Below are positions 11,165 to 16,850 of a DNA stretch of 64,000 nucleotides, piece after piece (the stretch's first letter is position 1; every line of letters starts with the position of its first letter). The notes under the pieces are model-generated. The model searched no databases, was not told the DNA's origin, and worked only from the letters and a program-made list of their open reading frames with translations. A program made the translations under genes and the position numbers. Source of the DNA: a gamma proteobacterium NOR5-3 (lineage in GTDB: Bacteria; Pseudomonadota; Gammaproteobacteria; Pseudomonadales; Halieaceae); NCBI GenBank assembly GCA_000158155.1, contig DS999407.1, positions 505,087-569,086 of the forward strand. Direction: 5' to 3'.

Positions 11165-11605
11165 AGATAAAGGACCTTTCGGCAGTAGACATCCTCGCTT
11201 ACTTTGCCGACTGGGATGCGCAACCGCTCACGCCATGCGGTTTTCAAGGGGTTCCTCGCTGGCTATGGGCCTGAGCCCTTCCCGGCGCAAAGAAGGAATG
11301 CAGCCAAGGGGACTCTCTCGACGCTTTGCGTCGACTCACCTTATCCGAGGCGGCGTTCTAGTCGGTTGACACCAGCAATGACCGAGTCGCTGCTTCCTGT
11401 TCTTTCTGGCGCAGTTGAGTCGGGATCCGGTCGAGAGCCGGTCCCGCAAGCGAAGCGAGTGCTTTGGTCATGATCCTGACGGATCCGCCACAGAGACTGC
11501 AGATCTCGACACGGTAGAGTGATGCGAGGCGTTATGAGCGGGTGCACTGGAACATGTCGGTGCTGAAAACCCGCTTTAGCCGGTGCGCCCGGGTCATTGC
11601 GATCG
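11165..11605 (-). mobile_element. Degenerate 3' end of an IS91-type element (partial copy)
   Basis: This stretch repeats, with many substitutions and a deletion of roughly 95 bases, the region 12348-12823 that carries the terminal non-coding part and the transposase C-terminal codons of the fuller element. Shared landmarks are AGATAAAGGACCTTTCGG at the outer end (11165 versus 12348), GCCATGCGGTTTTCAA, CCACA-AGACTGCAGA and GGGTCATTGCG. No reading frame survives. It has the same orientation as the fuller copy and ends about 20 bases before the tRNA-Lys fragment. The interval 10983-11164 should hold the sigma-gene promoter; I see nothing else in it. Confidence 0.75.
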
Positions 11606-11668: not shown

Positions 11669-11805
11669 TCGGACAGCCATTTTCCAGGTGATTGATTTAA
11701 TTTAACTTTTGTCGGTGACGCCCGTTGCAAGTTGCACCGAAATGCACAACAAAGCAGGACTGTTCCCGGCAAAAGTCCGGCAGTGGCGATCAATTGGAAT
11801 TCTAC

Positions 11806-12010
11806 TAACTGTCCTCTTCCGAGAAGGCTTTCTCCAGAAAGGTGGCGTAGCCGAGGATGGGTATAGCCTCCGCGACCGCTGCGCGGCGCAGGCCCAACGG
11901 ATTGTCGGTGTCAGAATCGCCGATCAGAAGCTGTAGTCAAGTATCACGTAGTAGCTACGGCGGGTATAGCGCCCGGGGCGTACACGCGGCATTCACGTCT
12001 CCAGGGGGCT
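11806..12010 (-). other. Possible decayed coding fragments, including a receptor-like C-terminus
   Basis: On the minus strand the codons ending at the TGA at 11924-11926 read RYTRRSYYVILDYSF, which resembles the last beta-strand of a TonB-dependent receptor. Overlapping it in another frame, about 43 codons down to a TAG at 11806-11808 (NPLGLRRAAVAEAIPILGY and so on) have GC-rich third positions like real coding sequence, but no start codon and no family I recognise. Both are too short to be genes and are probably remnants. The surrounding 11669-12017 otherwise shows nothing. Confidence 0.25.
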
Positions 12011-12017
12011 GTCCGCC

Positions 12018-12340
12018 TCAGGACAGCGGTTCCAGTCTCATCCGCACGGCGATCGTGGGACCCGGATCCACGGACGTGCGCGTCTCATGAATCCTATCCT
12101 CAAAGCGGTAGCGCACGCGATAGCCGCTGAGCTGCTCGCGTTCCTCGATCTCGTAGCTCGTGGAACACACCTCCTCCGTCACGTAGTAGCTGTCGTCGCG
12201 ACGCCGGCGCTGACCAATGTCGTTGCCGATGGAGGCGCCGAGAAGCGCGCCCGCACCGGTAATGAGATCTCGCCGGCTCGAATTGTCACCGAGGACGGAT
12301 CCCGCGGCCGCGCCGACCACACCGCCAAGGGGTATAGGGT
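12018..12340 (-). pseudogene. 5'-truncated glycine-zipper (17-kDa surface-antigen type) gene
   Basis: The surviving C-terminal portion reads GGVVGAAAGSVLGD, then GAGALLGASIGNDIG, a glycine-zipper pair, followed by the domain EEVCSTSYEIEEREQLSGY and dPGPTIAVRMRLEPLS typical of small outer-membrane proteins with a 17-kDa-antigen-like fold. There is no signal peptide or lipobox. The frame is lost upstream near 12340, exactly where the IS91-type terminus begins (12348), so the element probably removed the 5' part. The usual full length would be 150-180 residues; about 105 remain. Confidence 0.65.
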
Positions 12341-12347
12341 ATAGGAC

Positions 12348-14185
12348 AGATAAAGGACCTTTCGGGATTAGACATCCTCGCTGACTGTGCCGACTGGGAC
12401 TACAGACCGGTCAAAGTTTCCATCTGTTGACCCGTAAATCCAGTTCGCGGCGTGCGGCATGTTATTCCTATCCGGTCAATCCTGACGGAGCGCGCGCAAC
12501 CGCTCACGCCATGCGGTTTTCAATGGCTTCCTTGCTGGCTATGGGACGAAGTCCTTCCCGGCGAAAAGCAGCAATGTACCCCAGGGCACCTTCTCTCGAC
12601 GCTTGCGCCGATTCACCTTGTCCCAGGCGGCGCTCTGGTCGGCGGCACCAGCAGTGGCTGGGTCGGCGTTTCCCACTCTTTCTGGCGCACGTGAGTCAGG
12701 ATCTGGTCGATGACGTCCTGGTCCTCGATACAAGCGATGACTCTGGCGGATCCGCCACAAAGACTGCAGACCTCGATGTCGATGTTGAAAACTCGCTTTA
12801 GGCGTTGAGCCCAGGTCATTGCGGTATGACGCTCTGCGGGTGTGCGGACTTCTGCGTTGGAGGTAGACTTGATGCCTTTCCCACGCCTTGCTGGTGTGAC
12901 CAGCCCACGCCAGCGGTGGTTCGGCGCGAGTACGCCGTGGTAGCGGGTGAGGTTGACCCTCGGCTTCGGCACCAGTGCCGCCAATCGCGCTATAAAATCC
13001 ACTGGTTCGAAGGCCACCTGCGTAGTCCCATCCCGGTACGGTGTCTTCAGGGTGTAGACCACCTTGCCTGTGGAACTCAGCGAAAGTCGGGGAACTGCTA
13101 CGGCCGGGCGGGAAATGTACCGACACAGGCGCTCACGCTTGTCTTTCTGATTGCCCTCACAGCTGACCCCGGCGTGCAGAGAGAAGCCATTGGCCTTGGC
13201 CACCCGCTCCAGGCGAGGATCAGGCCGGTCCAGCGGACGGATGGTACGGATCATGAACGCTTTACGTCCCTGCTGTGGGCCAACGGCAATGCGGTAGGAG
13301 ATGGAACTGCCCAGGATCTGTGGCATCGCATCCGTGTCTTCTGCGGGTTCCTGTTCCAGCCAGGCGCTCTCGGTGTCCTGTTCCAGCAAGCCCTGGCGCT
13401 CGAGGCAGCGGCCGACGCGCTGGCTGATCAGTTGAACCAACTCCTCCAACTCGGCTTTGTCTGGTGCCTTGACGCGTTGAAATCGGGGTGGTCGATTGTC
13501 GCGATACACATAGACGCCATCCAAGAACAAAATATGAAAGTGAATGTTGAGGTTAAGGGCGCTGCCGAAGCGCTGGATTAGCGTCACGGCCCCAGTGGCG
13601 CCATCCTCGAGCGGTAATCCGATCTTGTGGATCAAGTGGGTGGAGATAGCCCGGTAAACGACGCCCAGCACCTTGCCCATAGCCTGGGGGTGGGCCGCAA
13701 ACAGGTAGCGCAGAGGAAAGGGGAAGCTGATGACCCACTGGCGAAGAGGGACATCGGGAAACACTTCATCGGCCAGCAGGGCGGCGGTCTCGGCCATGCG
13801 GCGGGCGCCACAACTGGGGCAGAACCCGCGTTTCTTGCAGGAAAAAGCCACCAGCCGCTCGAAGTGGCATTTGTCGCAGCGCACCCGGAGAAAGCCGTGC
13901 TCGAGGCGACCGCACTTTAGGTAAGCCTCAAATTCCCGGTGGACATGTGCAGGTAGGGATTTACCCTGCTGTGCCAGTTGCTCTACCAGGGCCGGATAAT
14001 GCGCCGCGATGAGCTGATAGAGAAGTGTCTGCTCGGGCCGATGGCGTTCGTAGAGGGTGCTGGCAAAGCTCTGCCGACCCGGTAACTGCATCGCGGTTGC
14101 GCCCTGGATCGCCATCGTGTGGAACGGTCCAGAGTGGAGTCGCGACCTGCGAGACGCCACGTCCGAAGCGGTCGTCGGCTTCGGC
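12348..14185 (-). mobile_element. IS91-type insertion element, nearly complete
   Basis: The element comprises the transposase gene plus about 265 bases of terminal sequence on its 3' side (12348-12612). The left limit is set by the sequence shared with 11165-11605 and by the breakpoint in the glycine-zipper gene. The right limit is set by the point where PQQ-dehydrogenase homology resumes, about 14185, and is uncertain by some tens of bases. IS91 elements have no terminal inverted repeats or target duplication, and move by rolling-circle-like replication, which can mobilise adjacent DNA. The two flanks are unrelated gene fragments, consistent with insertion and rearrangement here. Confidence 0.75.
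12613..14115 (-). CDS. IS91-family transposase (Y2/HUH type)
   Basis: Single-strand HUH nuclease that drives replicative transposition. The N-terminal zinc-binding domain has CDKCHFERLVAFSCKKRGFC and PSCGARRMAE. The catalytic HUH motif is NIHFHILFLDGVY, and the tyrosine region is LCRYISRPAVAVPRL. The C-terminal part includes FIARLAALVPKPRVNLTRYHG and a final CSLCGG cysteine pair. With ATG 14115 it is 500 residues, the family size; ATG 14091 is a good alternative, and the frame remains open to 14262 without homology. No internal stop or frameshift is visible, so the enzyme may be active. Fragments of relatives lie at 2860-3012 and 11165-11605. Confidence 0.9.
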   Translation of the reverse strand: MAIQGATAMQLPGRQSFASTLYERHRPEQTLLYQLIAAHYPALVEQLAQQGKSLPAHVHREFEAYLKCGRLEHGFLRVRCDKCHFERLVAFSCKKRGFCPSCGARRMAETAALLADEVFPDVPLRQWVISFPFPLRYLFAAHPQAMGKVLGVVYRAISTHLIHKIGLPLEDGATGAVTLIQRFGSALNLNIHFHILFLDGVYVYRDNRPPRFQRVKAPDKAELEELVQLISQRVGRCLERQGLLEQDTESAWLEQEPAEDTDAMPQILGSSISYRIAVGPQQGRKAFMIRTIRPLDRPDPRLERVAKANGFSLHAGVSCEGNQKDKRERLCRYISRPAVAVPRLSLSSTGKVVYTLKTPYRDGTTQVAFEPVDFIARLAALVPKPRVNLTRYHGVLAPNHRWRGLVTPARRGKGIKSTSNAEVRTPAERHTAMTWAQRLKRVFNIDIEVCSLCGGSARVIACIEDQDVIDQILTHVRQKEWETPTQPLLVPPTRAPPGTR

Positions 14186-15309
14186 CGCTCGACAACGATC
14201 TCAGCTATTACGGTTCCTCGGTTGTGGCCGTGCGCGCCTCGACTGGCGAGGTGGTGTGGCATTTCAATACAGTGATCAATGATTATTGGGATTTCGATAT
14301 CCCTTCACAGCCGGTGATAGCGGACATCGAGATTGACGGCGAGTGGGTGCCAGTGGTGATTCAGAGTACGAAGATGGGGTTTGTCTTTGTGCTTCACAGA
14401 GACACCGGCGAACCCGTTGTGGATGTCACCTATCGGCCTGTGCCTCGTCACGGACCGCTCGAGGCATTGCTCTCGCCGGTGCAGCCCTTTCCGCCGGAGG
14501 CGTTCCAGGCCTCTCGATCCTACGAGGCTGGTGGTTCGCTTTTCGGGTTCTGTGACGATTTAGAGAACGAGAGCGTGATCGGTCCCGTCTACACGCCGAT
14601 CACAGAAGACTGGACGATTGGGCTGCCGAGCAATATGGGGGCGACCAACTGGGGTGGGGTCGCAGTTGACCCGGAACGGGGTCTGATTGCGGTCAGAACC
14701 AGCAGCGTGCCGTTTCGTACCAAACTGATCGAGCGGGCGGATGCCGCCGATCTGCTAGCGATTCTTGATGCCGAAGCTGCAACATCGCAAGCCAGAACCC
14801 AGGCTCAAAAGGCATTCTTTGAACGTTACAACCTGCCCCCGGGAACCGAAGTAGCCCGCCAGTCCGGGACAGACTATCTGATGGCCCGCCATGTGATGCT
14901 GGATCCGGTGATTGGGTTGCCCTGCGCAGGCGTGCCGCTTGGTGAGCTGATGATGATCGATATTGACGATGAACAGGTTCTCTGGCGGCGGCCACATGGC
15001 ACGGCCCGTGATGCGGGTTTGCCGTTTAACGTCGGCATGCCCGGTGTGGGCGGTTCTCTGATCACGTCGAGTGGCCTGGTGTTTGTTGGTGGCATTGCCG
15101 AAAGTGCGTTTCGTGCCTATGACGTCACAACCGGTGAAGAACTCTGGCATCACCGCCTGCCAAACCCGGCCAATGCCACGCCAATGAGTTATACGGTCAG
15201 TCTGCCTGAGGGTCAGAAACCCTTTGTCGTGGTTGCCGCCGGTGGTGATGAGCGCGGTGGCATTGGCGGCGTGGGCGACTATCTTGTGGCGTTCTCTATT
15301 GCGCGATGA
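14185..15309 (+). pseudogene. PQQ-dependent (glucose-type) dehydrogenase, 5' half lost
   Basis: Quinoprotein dehydrogenases oxidise sugars or alcohols in the periplasm with pyrroloquinoline quinone and pass electrons to the respiratory chain. The visible part holds beta-propeller segments: YYGSSVVAVRASTGEVVWHF, NDYWDFDIPSQPVIADI, NMGATNWGGVAVDPERGL, LMMIDIDDEQVLWRRPHGT and the C-terminal FVVVAAGGDERGG. Such proteins have roughly 600-800 residues; only about 374 remain, with no start codon or signal peptide. The upstream junction coincides with the IS91-type element. The stop (15307-15309) directly abuts the stop of the convergent redoxin gene. It is probably non-functional. Confidence 0.85.
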
Positions 15310-16050
15310 TTATGCAAAGCTGCTTTTGATGGCCGAGGCGACGTAGGCAGGGTCAGAACGTTGCGGGTAGTTAGCCGATTGATCCTTCCAGACCACCGTG
15401 CCAGCCTGATCGATGAGCAATGAAGTCGGCACAGGCAGACCCGGTCGCCCGGGCATCTTAAAGTTGTTGATGTTCTGGTTTTTGACGCCGAATAAATTGA
15501 TCACTTTCAGTTCCGGGTCGGCCAGCATGGTTGCTTTGAGCCCATGCAGGCTGCGACCGGCTCGAATCTCGCCGGGTTTGTCCGTTGAGACAGTGACGAC
15601 CTCAATACCGGCCTCTTCCAGCGTCGGTCTCAGTTCTTCCCATCGCCGTAACTCGGCGACACAGTAGGGTCACCAGTGACCGCGGAAAAACTTGAGCAGT
15701 ACACGCTTGCCTTCGAGAGTTGAGCTGTTAAAGGTGCTGTCATCAGCGGCGATAGCCGTAAAGGCCGGGATCTTGTCGCCGACGCTGATCGACTCGCCGC
15801 CCATACGCTGGCGCCCGGTGGAGATCAGATAAACCAGCAACGCGCCGATGCCGATAGCGGTCGGTGCGAACGGATCGGCAGGATTCTGCAGGTAAGCCAA
15901 TACGCCCAGCACCAGCCCTGTTATCCACAATCCCCGATACAGTCCGAATGACGCCGGTATATTCACTTTCATGGCACGCCAGAACCACCGGATTGCGGAG
16001 CCCAGCAGCAGTACGAGAGCCATCAGCCCCAGATAGGGGATTTCCGGCAT
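15310..16050 (-). CDS. Membrane-anchored redoxin with in-frame UGA: candidate selenoprotein
   Basis: Thioredoxin-fold redoxin of the AhpC/TSA or TlpA-like group. ATG 16050 has GGAGG eight bases upstream. Residues 1-80 hold three likely membrane segments (about 6-24, 37-54 and 62-78), then GDKIPAFTAIAADD and LLKFFRGHW. The next codon is TGA (15670-15672), followed in frame by PYCVAELRRW, TVSTDKPGEIR, GLKATMLAD, LPVPTSLLIDQAGTVVW and a TAA at 15310. Relatives read WCPYC, so UGA replaces the first redox cysteine; as selenocysteine this would be U127 with C130 in a 246-residue protein. Read as a stop, the product lacks its catalytic site. No selA, selB or selC lies in the window. The alternative is a nonsense mutation in a decaying island. 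It is convergent with the PQQ-dehydrogenase remnant. Confidence 0.78.
15642..15664 (-). promoter_or_regulatory. SECIS-like hairpin immediately after the in-frame UGA
   Basis: In the mRNA, five nucleotides after the UGA, a nine-base-pair stem forms between CUGUCGCCG and CGGCGAUGG (two G-U pairs), closing a five-base loop AGUUA. The loop carries G and U at its start, as bacterial SECIS elements do. The distance from the UGA to the loop is about 14 nucleotides, slightly shorter than I recall for characterised examples. The loop is supplied by a UUA leucine codon, unusual among the GC-rich codons of this genome. Seen: pairing and loop; inferred: SelB binding. Confidence 0.55.
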
Positions 16051-16101
16051 GGTCAGCGCCTCCAGCAAATTTGATTACAGAATAACATGATTGTGGCGAG
16101 C

Positions 16102-16479
16102 TTACGGTGTGACTCGAATGATCTGATCCTGACCGAGCGGAGTCTGGATCATCATCACACCCTGCTGACCAAACCGTTTGACATAGAGTGTCGCCAACGA
16201 CTGCGCTTTGGGGATATCAGCTTTGTTTATCAGCAGAGTAACAACGCGGGACCTTTCTGCGGCACCCTGGTAGTAGCCGATGGTCTCGCTGACCGTGAAC
16301 CCGTCGAACGCGGCGGCGATATCCTGGTTCTGAAAATGCTGCCATTCCTGATAAGACACGGCGCCCCCGCCAGGTTTCGAAAGACCAAAAAACATCTGCA
16401 GCTGATGAGTGATGGGGGGCGTCGCCGCCTGGGTGATAGCGGTGATGGTCAGCAGGCAGGTCAGGAGCAAAATGCGCAT
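16102..16479 (-). CDS. Exported DUF3574 family protein
   Basis: A small protein of 125 residues starting at ATG 16479, with a signal peptide (MRILLLTCLLTITAITQA). The core has QLQMFFGLSKPGG, VSYQEWQHFQNQDIAAAFD, GFTVSETIGYY and a VVTLLINKAD strand, matching the conserved pattern of DUF3574 (FGLS, W..F, F.DGfTV, then a gR..E-like segment). No function is known for the family. It lies about 50 bases upstream of the redoxin gene on the same strand and could be co-transcribed. It is inside the putative island bounded by the tRNA-Lys repeat. Confidence 0.7.
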   Translation of the reverse strand: MRILLLTCLLTITAITQAATPPITHQLQMFFGLSKPGGGAVSYQEWQHFQNQDIAAAFDGFTVSETIGYYQGAAERSRVVTLLINKADIPKAQSLATLYVKRFGQQGVMMIQTPLGQDQIIRVTP

Positions 16480-16658
16480 CAGGATTCTCCGTCAGAGGGT
16501 TAACAGGGTCTGGGACAACCGGGTACGGGCAGCGTACACGGTTCGGTCTGGTGATCCAGGTCATGGTATGCCTTCTGTGGTGCGACTACTATAAAACAGT
16601 ACTCGATGCGCCACTCGCCCCATGTCTGACAGGCAACTGAGTCGGCATTATCAACCGA

Positions 16659-16749
16659 GTTTAGTGAAAACCGGTGTATCCCCCGTTAACTGGGTAGAGC
16701 CGAGCCGTTTAGTGAAAACCGGTGTATCCCCCGTTAACTGGGTAGAGCC
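16659..16749. repeat. Two tandem copies of a 43-base unit (period 48)
   Basis: GTTTAGTGAAAACCGGTGTA begins each copy and GGGTAGAGCC ends it; copies lie at 16659-16701 and 16707-16749 and are identical. The five bases between them (GAGCC) nearly repeat the end of the unit. There are only two copies, with no spacer variation, so this is not a CRISPR array. It sits 25 bases from the 3' end of tRNA-Lys, at the putative island end. The rest of the 295-base gap 16480-16774 shows nothing I recognise. Confidence 0.85.
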
Positions 16750-16774
16750 AGCAATTGATAGAAAAAGGGAAAAA

Positions 16775-16819
16775 TGGTGGGCCGTGCTGGGTTCGAACCA
16801 GCGACCAATTGGTTAAAAG
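16775..16819 (-). repeat. tRNA-Lys 3' segment matching the copy at 11624 (putative attachment site)
   Basis: The 45 bases from the anticodon loop to the encoded CCA are identical and in the same orientation as 11624-11668. The intact tRNA retains its 5' half here, as expected when an element re-creates the tRNA end on integration. The interval between the two copies is the candidate island. Confidence 0.75.
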
Positions 16820-16850
16820 CCAACTGCTCTACCAACTGAGCTAACGGCCC
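16775..16850 (-). tRNA. tRNA-Lys (anticodon UUU), CCA encoded
   Basis: The minus strand folds as a cloverleaf of 76 nt. The acceptor stem GGGCCGU pairs with ACGGCCC, followed by A and CCA. The D-loop has AGCTCAGTTGGTAGAGC, the anticodon loop CTTTTAA gives UUU, and the T arm has GGTTCGAACCC. It closely resembles E. coli tRNA-Lys. The 3' 45 nt are duplicated at 11624-11668. A T-rich stretch follows the 3' end. Confidence 0.97.

Follow-up and report, generated by a model that had tools for sequence, protein, structure and literature searches.

Does an in-frame TGA at the redox-active position of a redoxin gene mean that the organism carrying the gene makes a selenoprotein? The question is raised by a locus within a 64,000-nucleotide stretch of bacterial DNA (the window), for which the synthesis of a membrane-anchored selenoprotein had been predicted. 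It is answered here from the gene itself, its homologues, the selenocysteine (Sec) decoding machinery of the host and its relatives, and the genomic segment in which the gene resides.

Reading Frame and Domain Organization

The features of the locus are compiled in Table 1. On the minus strand, the redoxin frame extends from an ATG at 16050-16048, with GGAGG upstream, to a TAA at 15312-15310, the sole in-frame TGA being located at 15672-15670; when re-derived, these coordinates were the same as in the original prediction. Its description of the active site was likewise borne out, as the TGA takes the place of the first redox Cys while the second Cys is kept, giving the motif FFRGHW-U-PYC. The 126 residues N-terminal and the 119 residues C-terminal to the TGA form, as had been proposed, one redoxin in the read-through translation, with a Pfam AhpC-TSA match (PF00578, 88.5 bits versus a cut-off of 26) that spans the UxxC position. 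The transmembrane helices are taken from a single-sequence AlphaFold model of low overall confidence (pLDDT of about 60-77 in the helices); a hydrophobic N-terminus is common to the aligned homologues. The protein would consist of a membrane anchor of three helices and, after it, a redoxin domain of the AhpC/TSA type whose active site reads Sec-Pro-Tyr-Cys.

Table 1. Features of the redoxin locus and its surroundings (window positions).
Feature	Position	Strand	Basis or remark
UGA-containing membrane-anchored redoxin gene	15310-16050	-	246 codons + TAA
In-frame TGA, first redox-active position, residue 127	15670-15672	-	Sequence and homologue alignment
AhpC/TSA (redoxin) domain, residues 90-221	15388-15783	-	Pfam, E 4e-25, TGA read as Cys
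Three predicted transmembrane helices, residues 5-26, 33-55, 62-82	15805-16038	-	Single-sequence AlphaFold model
bSECIS-like hairpin GUCGCCG-AGUUA-CGGCGAU	15642-15660	-	7-bp stem, 5-nt loop; conservation and covariation
Small DUF3574 protein gene, upstream of redoxin gene, same strand	16102-16479	-	Family search
tRNA-Lys(TTT), apparent integration site	16775-16850	-	tRNA typing
Direct repeat copy 1, 3' part of tRNA-Lys	16770-16819	+	Repeat search
Direct repeat copy 2, far end of segment	11619-11668	+	50 bp, 98% identical
IS91-family Y2 transposase, within segment	12613-14262	-	Family search
5'-truncated PQQ dehydrogenase fragment	14119-15309	+	Profile positions 264-589 of 595

Conservation of the UGA among Homologues

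In a six-frame search over 196 related genomes, homologues were detected at 29 loci outside the window genome (41-49% identity), every one of them containing exactly one internal TGA, and one extra locus was obtained by an order-wide search. In the codon alignment, the TGA falls into one shared column in 31/31 sequences, that is, in the window gene and in 30 homologues from 30 other genomes. At the UGA position, Cys is found in two homologues that are more distant, contain no stop, and belong to another family of the same order (L168, FYRGGWCPYC; L169, FFRGSWCPYC); the genome of one of them, G184, was covered by the selB search described below and is not among the selB-positive genomes. Selenoproteins are usually recognized by just such an exchange of Sec and Cys at a redox position. 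The comparison with homologues suggested along with the original prediction was thus favorable to it, the close ones all having UGA and the two distant ones Cys, and the window gene is a member of a conserved family of UGA-containing, membrane-anchored UxxC redoxins. Searches of genome contigs, viral contigs, and plasmids returned only distant relatives or none.

The TGA, one base away from TGC or TGT, might be a sequencing error or have arisen in an ordinary Cys redoxin gene by one nonsense mutation, but this reading would have to account for the TGA found at this codon in each of the 30 homologues, all from different genomes, and for the RNA-level conservation directly after it. Its probability is negligible; the 30 homologues rule it out, and the earlier argument that a chance nonsense mutation would hardly hit that codon has held. 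The window gene is a real selenoprotein gene by descent.

Additional copies of such genes occur in several of the related genomes. Extra copies of the redoxin, broken or partial, accompany an intact copy within the genome concerned (G088:C138 and G018:C87). A second UGA redoxin with an AVWUPPCW motif (UPPC) is encoded close to the UPYC gene, but on the other strand, at L144:10596 (G018) and L145:14380 (G037), and similar one-TGA matches are located beside the UPYC gene in G015, G050, G089, G102, G111, G112, G113, and G119. A search with this second redoxin gave no further TGA copy in the window genome (G000).

A SECIS-Like Hairpin downstream of the UGA

The family also possesses a hairpin directly after the UGA. 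In the published bSECIS model, a loop of 3-9 nt, a stem of 4-16 bp, and a G in the first two loop positions are combined with a distance of 16-37 nt from the UGA and a minimum free energy (MFE) of at most -7.5 (PMC13188914). The window hairpin, with G as the second base of its loop, located 16 nt past the UGA and having an MFE of -13.5 kcal/mol, lies within the published limits for loop, spacing, stem, and energy. Since the folding energy of the window copy, taken by itself, is not unusual (p 0.14-0.27; 0.14 in comparison with synonymous shuffles), the case for a SECIS element is built on synonymous conservation and covariation. When six-codon windows are ordered by synonymous conservation among 28 representatives, those beginning at codons 0 to +5 behind the UGA take ranks 1-6 of 243, with z values of 4.9 and 6.7 in columns +4 and +5, and the leucine at +7 is encoded by TTA or TTG in 29/31 sequences. 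Over 23 distinct sequences, 92.5% of the cells of the hairpin are paired, versus 85.8% after shuffling and about 60% at most when the hairpin is slid along the alignment. One pair covaries between C-G and G-U or G-C as an alanine is replaced by glycine, the third base of an arginine codon following this change, and the window copy conforms to the pattern.

Sec Machinery in Related Genomes

The UGA redoxin gene co-occurs with selB, which is present in 26/31 of the genomes having the gene (the window genome being counted among the 31) versus 22/165 of the others (Fisher p = 1.4e-14, a value that overstates independence because the genomes are related). Besides the window genome, the selB-negative carriers are four fragmented assemblies that are 79-93% complete and consist of 90-330 contigs. 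A tRNA-Sec gene lies beside selB in 27/29 selB loci scanned, and in G033 selB and the redoxin gene itself are about 220 bases apart and flank tRNA-Sec. One genome, G149, contains two selB genes. Within the family, Sec use is patchy, selB being matched in 39/120 genomes. In the Sec-using relatives, SelB would bind the hairpin and bring Sec-tRNA(Sec) to the UGA. Paired with the second Cys, the selenolate would then perform thiol/selenol redox chemistry, for which the periplasmic side is the probable location.

Sec Machinery in the Window Genome

The window genome itself presents a different picture. In its assembly of 4,208,084 bases (4.21 Mb; 6 contigs, 100% complete), selA has no match at E<=0.001 and selB none over the curated cut-off. 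The best two SelB candidates, encoded by near-identical full-length frames in a ribosomal-gene region, are taken as EF-Tu. tRNA-Sec is absent as well; the top match (C6:771114), marginally above the Rfam cut-off, is typed as tRNA-Ser(TGA). What is present is selD, fused to an N-terminal NADH-dehydrogenase-like part. Since it adjoins mnmH, it is accounted for by tRNA 2-selenouridine and was dropped as a sign of Sec use. The sel genes named as a check of the original prediction, for which a missing sel system had been set down as a refuting result, are thus represented by selD, whereas selA, selB, and tRNA-Sec are missing, and the claim that the organism makes the selenoprotein is probably wrong. 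With SelA, SelB, and tRNA-Sec lacking in the host, translation would most likely stop at the UGA, leaving a 126-residue membrane stub.

The main alternative is that the organism does make the selenoprotein and that a selA-selB-selC cluster is hidden in an assembly gap or was located on a lost replicon. The redoxin gene and its SECIS are intact, the assembly is in 6 contigs, and Sec genes are usually clustered, so that one gap could conceal all of them. Against this stand the 100% completeness, the lack of any selA trace at the threshold given above, and the position of four contig ends within rRNA operons, by which those breaks are explained as repeats; in addition, selB is absent from all three congeners, one of which is assembled as a single contig. 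A hidden cluster is, on balance, unlikely.

The UGA might also be read in another way, by near-cognate Trp readthrough or an undetected suppressor, yielding some full-length protein. The intact downstream frame would agree with this, but none of the 45 tRNAs typed in the window genome has a UCA anticodon, its tRNA-Trp has the anticodon CCA, and TGA is an ordinary stop there, terminating several ordinary genes. Such decoding is very improbable.

The Genomic Segment at tRNA-Lys

The redoxin gene is located deep inside a 585-kb contig, between two direct repeats that correspond to the 3' part of tRNA-Lys (50 bp, 98% identical; start-to-start distance 5151) and border a segment of about 5.2 kb, in the manner of a tRNA-targeted element. 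Synteny with congener G002 (74%) covers the flank between 19950 and 16643, whereas the query beyond 16643 toward the redoxin gene has no match in any of the three congeners. No integrase was recognized among the main ORFs of 11669-16769, which instead include the IS91-family transposase. In congener G001, an ORF resembling a tyrosine recombinase in a by-eye reading (C-terminal LGHRNGDITTHYS) ends 23 bases from the equivalent tRNA-Lys, which suggests an integration hotspot at this tRNA gene. The borders of the segment and its transfer are uncertain because an own integrase is absent, a dispersed repeat follows tRNA-Lys in both the window genome and G002, and the G+C content is the same as that of the host.

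Two further repeats were observed in this region. Directly after tRNA-Lys, window positions 16659-16749 contain two copies of a 43-bp repeat (GTTTAGTGAAAACCGGTGTATCCCCCGTTAACTGGGTAGAGCC), near-identical copies of which occur at many sites of G002. Parts of the IS91 element recur at window positions 11370-11509 and 12646-12776 (78-88% identical), which suggests that the element is partially present a second time near the far tRNA-Lys repeat.

If Sec had formerly been in use in the lineage and its machinery had disappeared recently, the gene would be a vertical leftover and not an import. The patchy Sec use in the family, the host-like G+C content, and the long branch of the window gene without a close sampled donor would be compatible with such a history. 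However, neither selB nor the gene occurs in any congener, and the segment between the tRNA-Lys repeats, in which the gene lies, is not present in any of the three. Vertical descent is regarded as rather improbable.

Evolutionary State of the Gene

The window gene has not decayed. Of the otherwise invariant residues, 31/33 are kept after the UGA and 10/10 in the part of the redoxin before it, and the 119 post-UGA codons contain 0 stops and 0 frameshifts. Because 4.2% of single changes in this part would create a stop and none has arisen, divergence under neutral drift is bounded (95%) at about 0.2 substitutions per site. The terminal branch is long (1.9), and no close donor of the window copy is found among the sampled sequences. 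The share of the window gene in the tree length is 0.142 after versus 0.126 before the UGA, which is no clear sign of relaxed constraint after the UGA; evolution is slow over residues 128-180, and the rate seems higher only in residues 181-246. It follows that through the greater part of its history the gene evolved as one encoding a full-length protein; decoding was probably lost, or the gene transferred, in recent times.

Taken together, the locus is best explained as a selenoprotein gene with an intact SECIS that was probably acquired horizontally without the decoding machinery and became stranded in a Sec-negative host. It would have been brought in at tRNA-Lys, most likely by horizontal transfer and unaccompanied by the machinery, and would not yet have decayed. 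On the other side, the undecayed post-UGA sequence would also fit a gene that is still in use, and an assembly in 6 contigs leaves room for a missing Sec cluster. It is also conceivable, though doubtful, that a selenoprotein gene traveling as mobile cargo without its machinery stays intact in a host that does not use Sec, either because its truncated membrane product is functional or because the UGA is read in an unrecognized manner. If a stranded gene is indeed at hand, selenoprotein genes can arrive, or outlast, without their decoding machinery. The gene would then be a test case for the rate of decay or of conversion to Cys, and a caution against deducing Sec use from a single UGA gene.

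Comparison with Known Systems

Across genomes, a good correlation between the presence of tRNA-Sec and that of selenoproteins has been reported, and in a tRNA-Sec survey the selenoprotein genes mentioned without tRNA-Sec are four, from two archaeal assemblies, and are ascribed to contamination (PMC5330540).

Among known redoxins, the ResA/TlpA-type thiol-disulfide oxidoreductases are likewise membrane-tethered and have two active-site chalcogen residues two apart; ResA is both the best NCBIfam match and the nearest PDB sequence. The window redoxin differs from this type by its three predicted helices, by the Sec codon replacing the first Cys, and by scores far under the curated cut-offs (48.5 versus 170 bits for ResA, NF002854). 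Two redoxin-fold models are named for a Sec motif or for selenoprotein SelL, namely NF041054 (WAxxUGC_long; score 46 versus a cut-off of 300) and NF040769 (SelL-related; 28 versus 120), while the window motif is UPYC. As no NCBIfam model reached its cut-off, the three-helix anchored form is without an NCBIfam model, and no paper describing it was found in the part of the literature searched. The suggestion that a membrane-anchored Sec architecture might be undescribed concerns the anchored form; the UxxC Prx-like kind as such is known from marine metagenomes (PMC2398784, PMC1088965).

With these Prx-like UxxC selenoproteins, represented by Prx-like 1 of the GOS set (PMC2398784) and a Prx-like thiol:disulfide oxidoreductase (PMC13188914), the window gene shares PF00578 and UxxC, a bSECIS directly past the UGA, and Cys homologues; a three-helix N-terminal anchor is not mentioned for them in the accessible portions of the two sources. 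Unlike them, the window gene sits in a host devoid of the Sec machinery.
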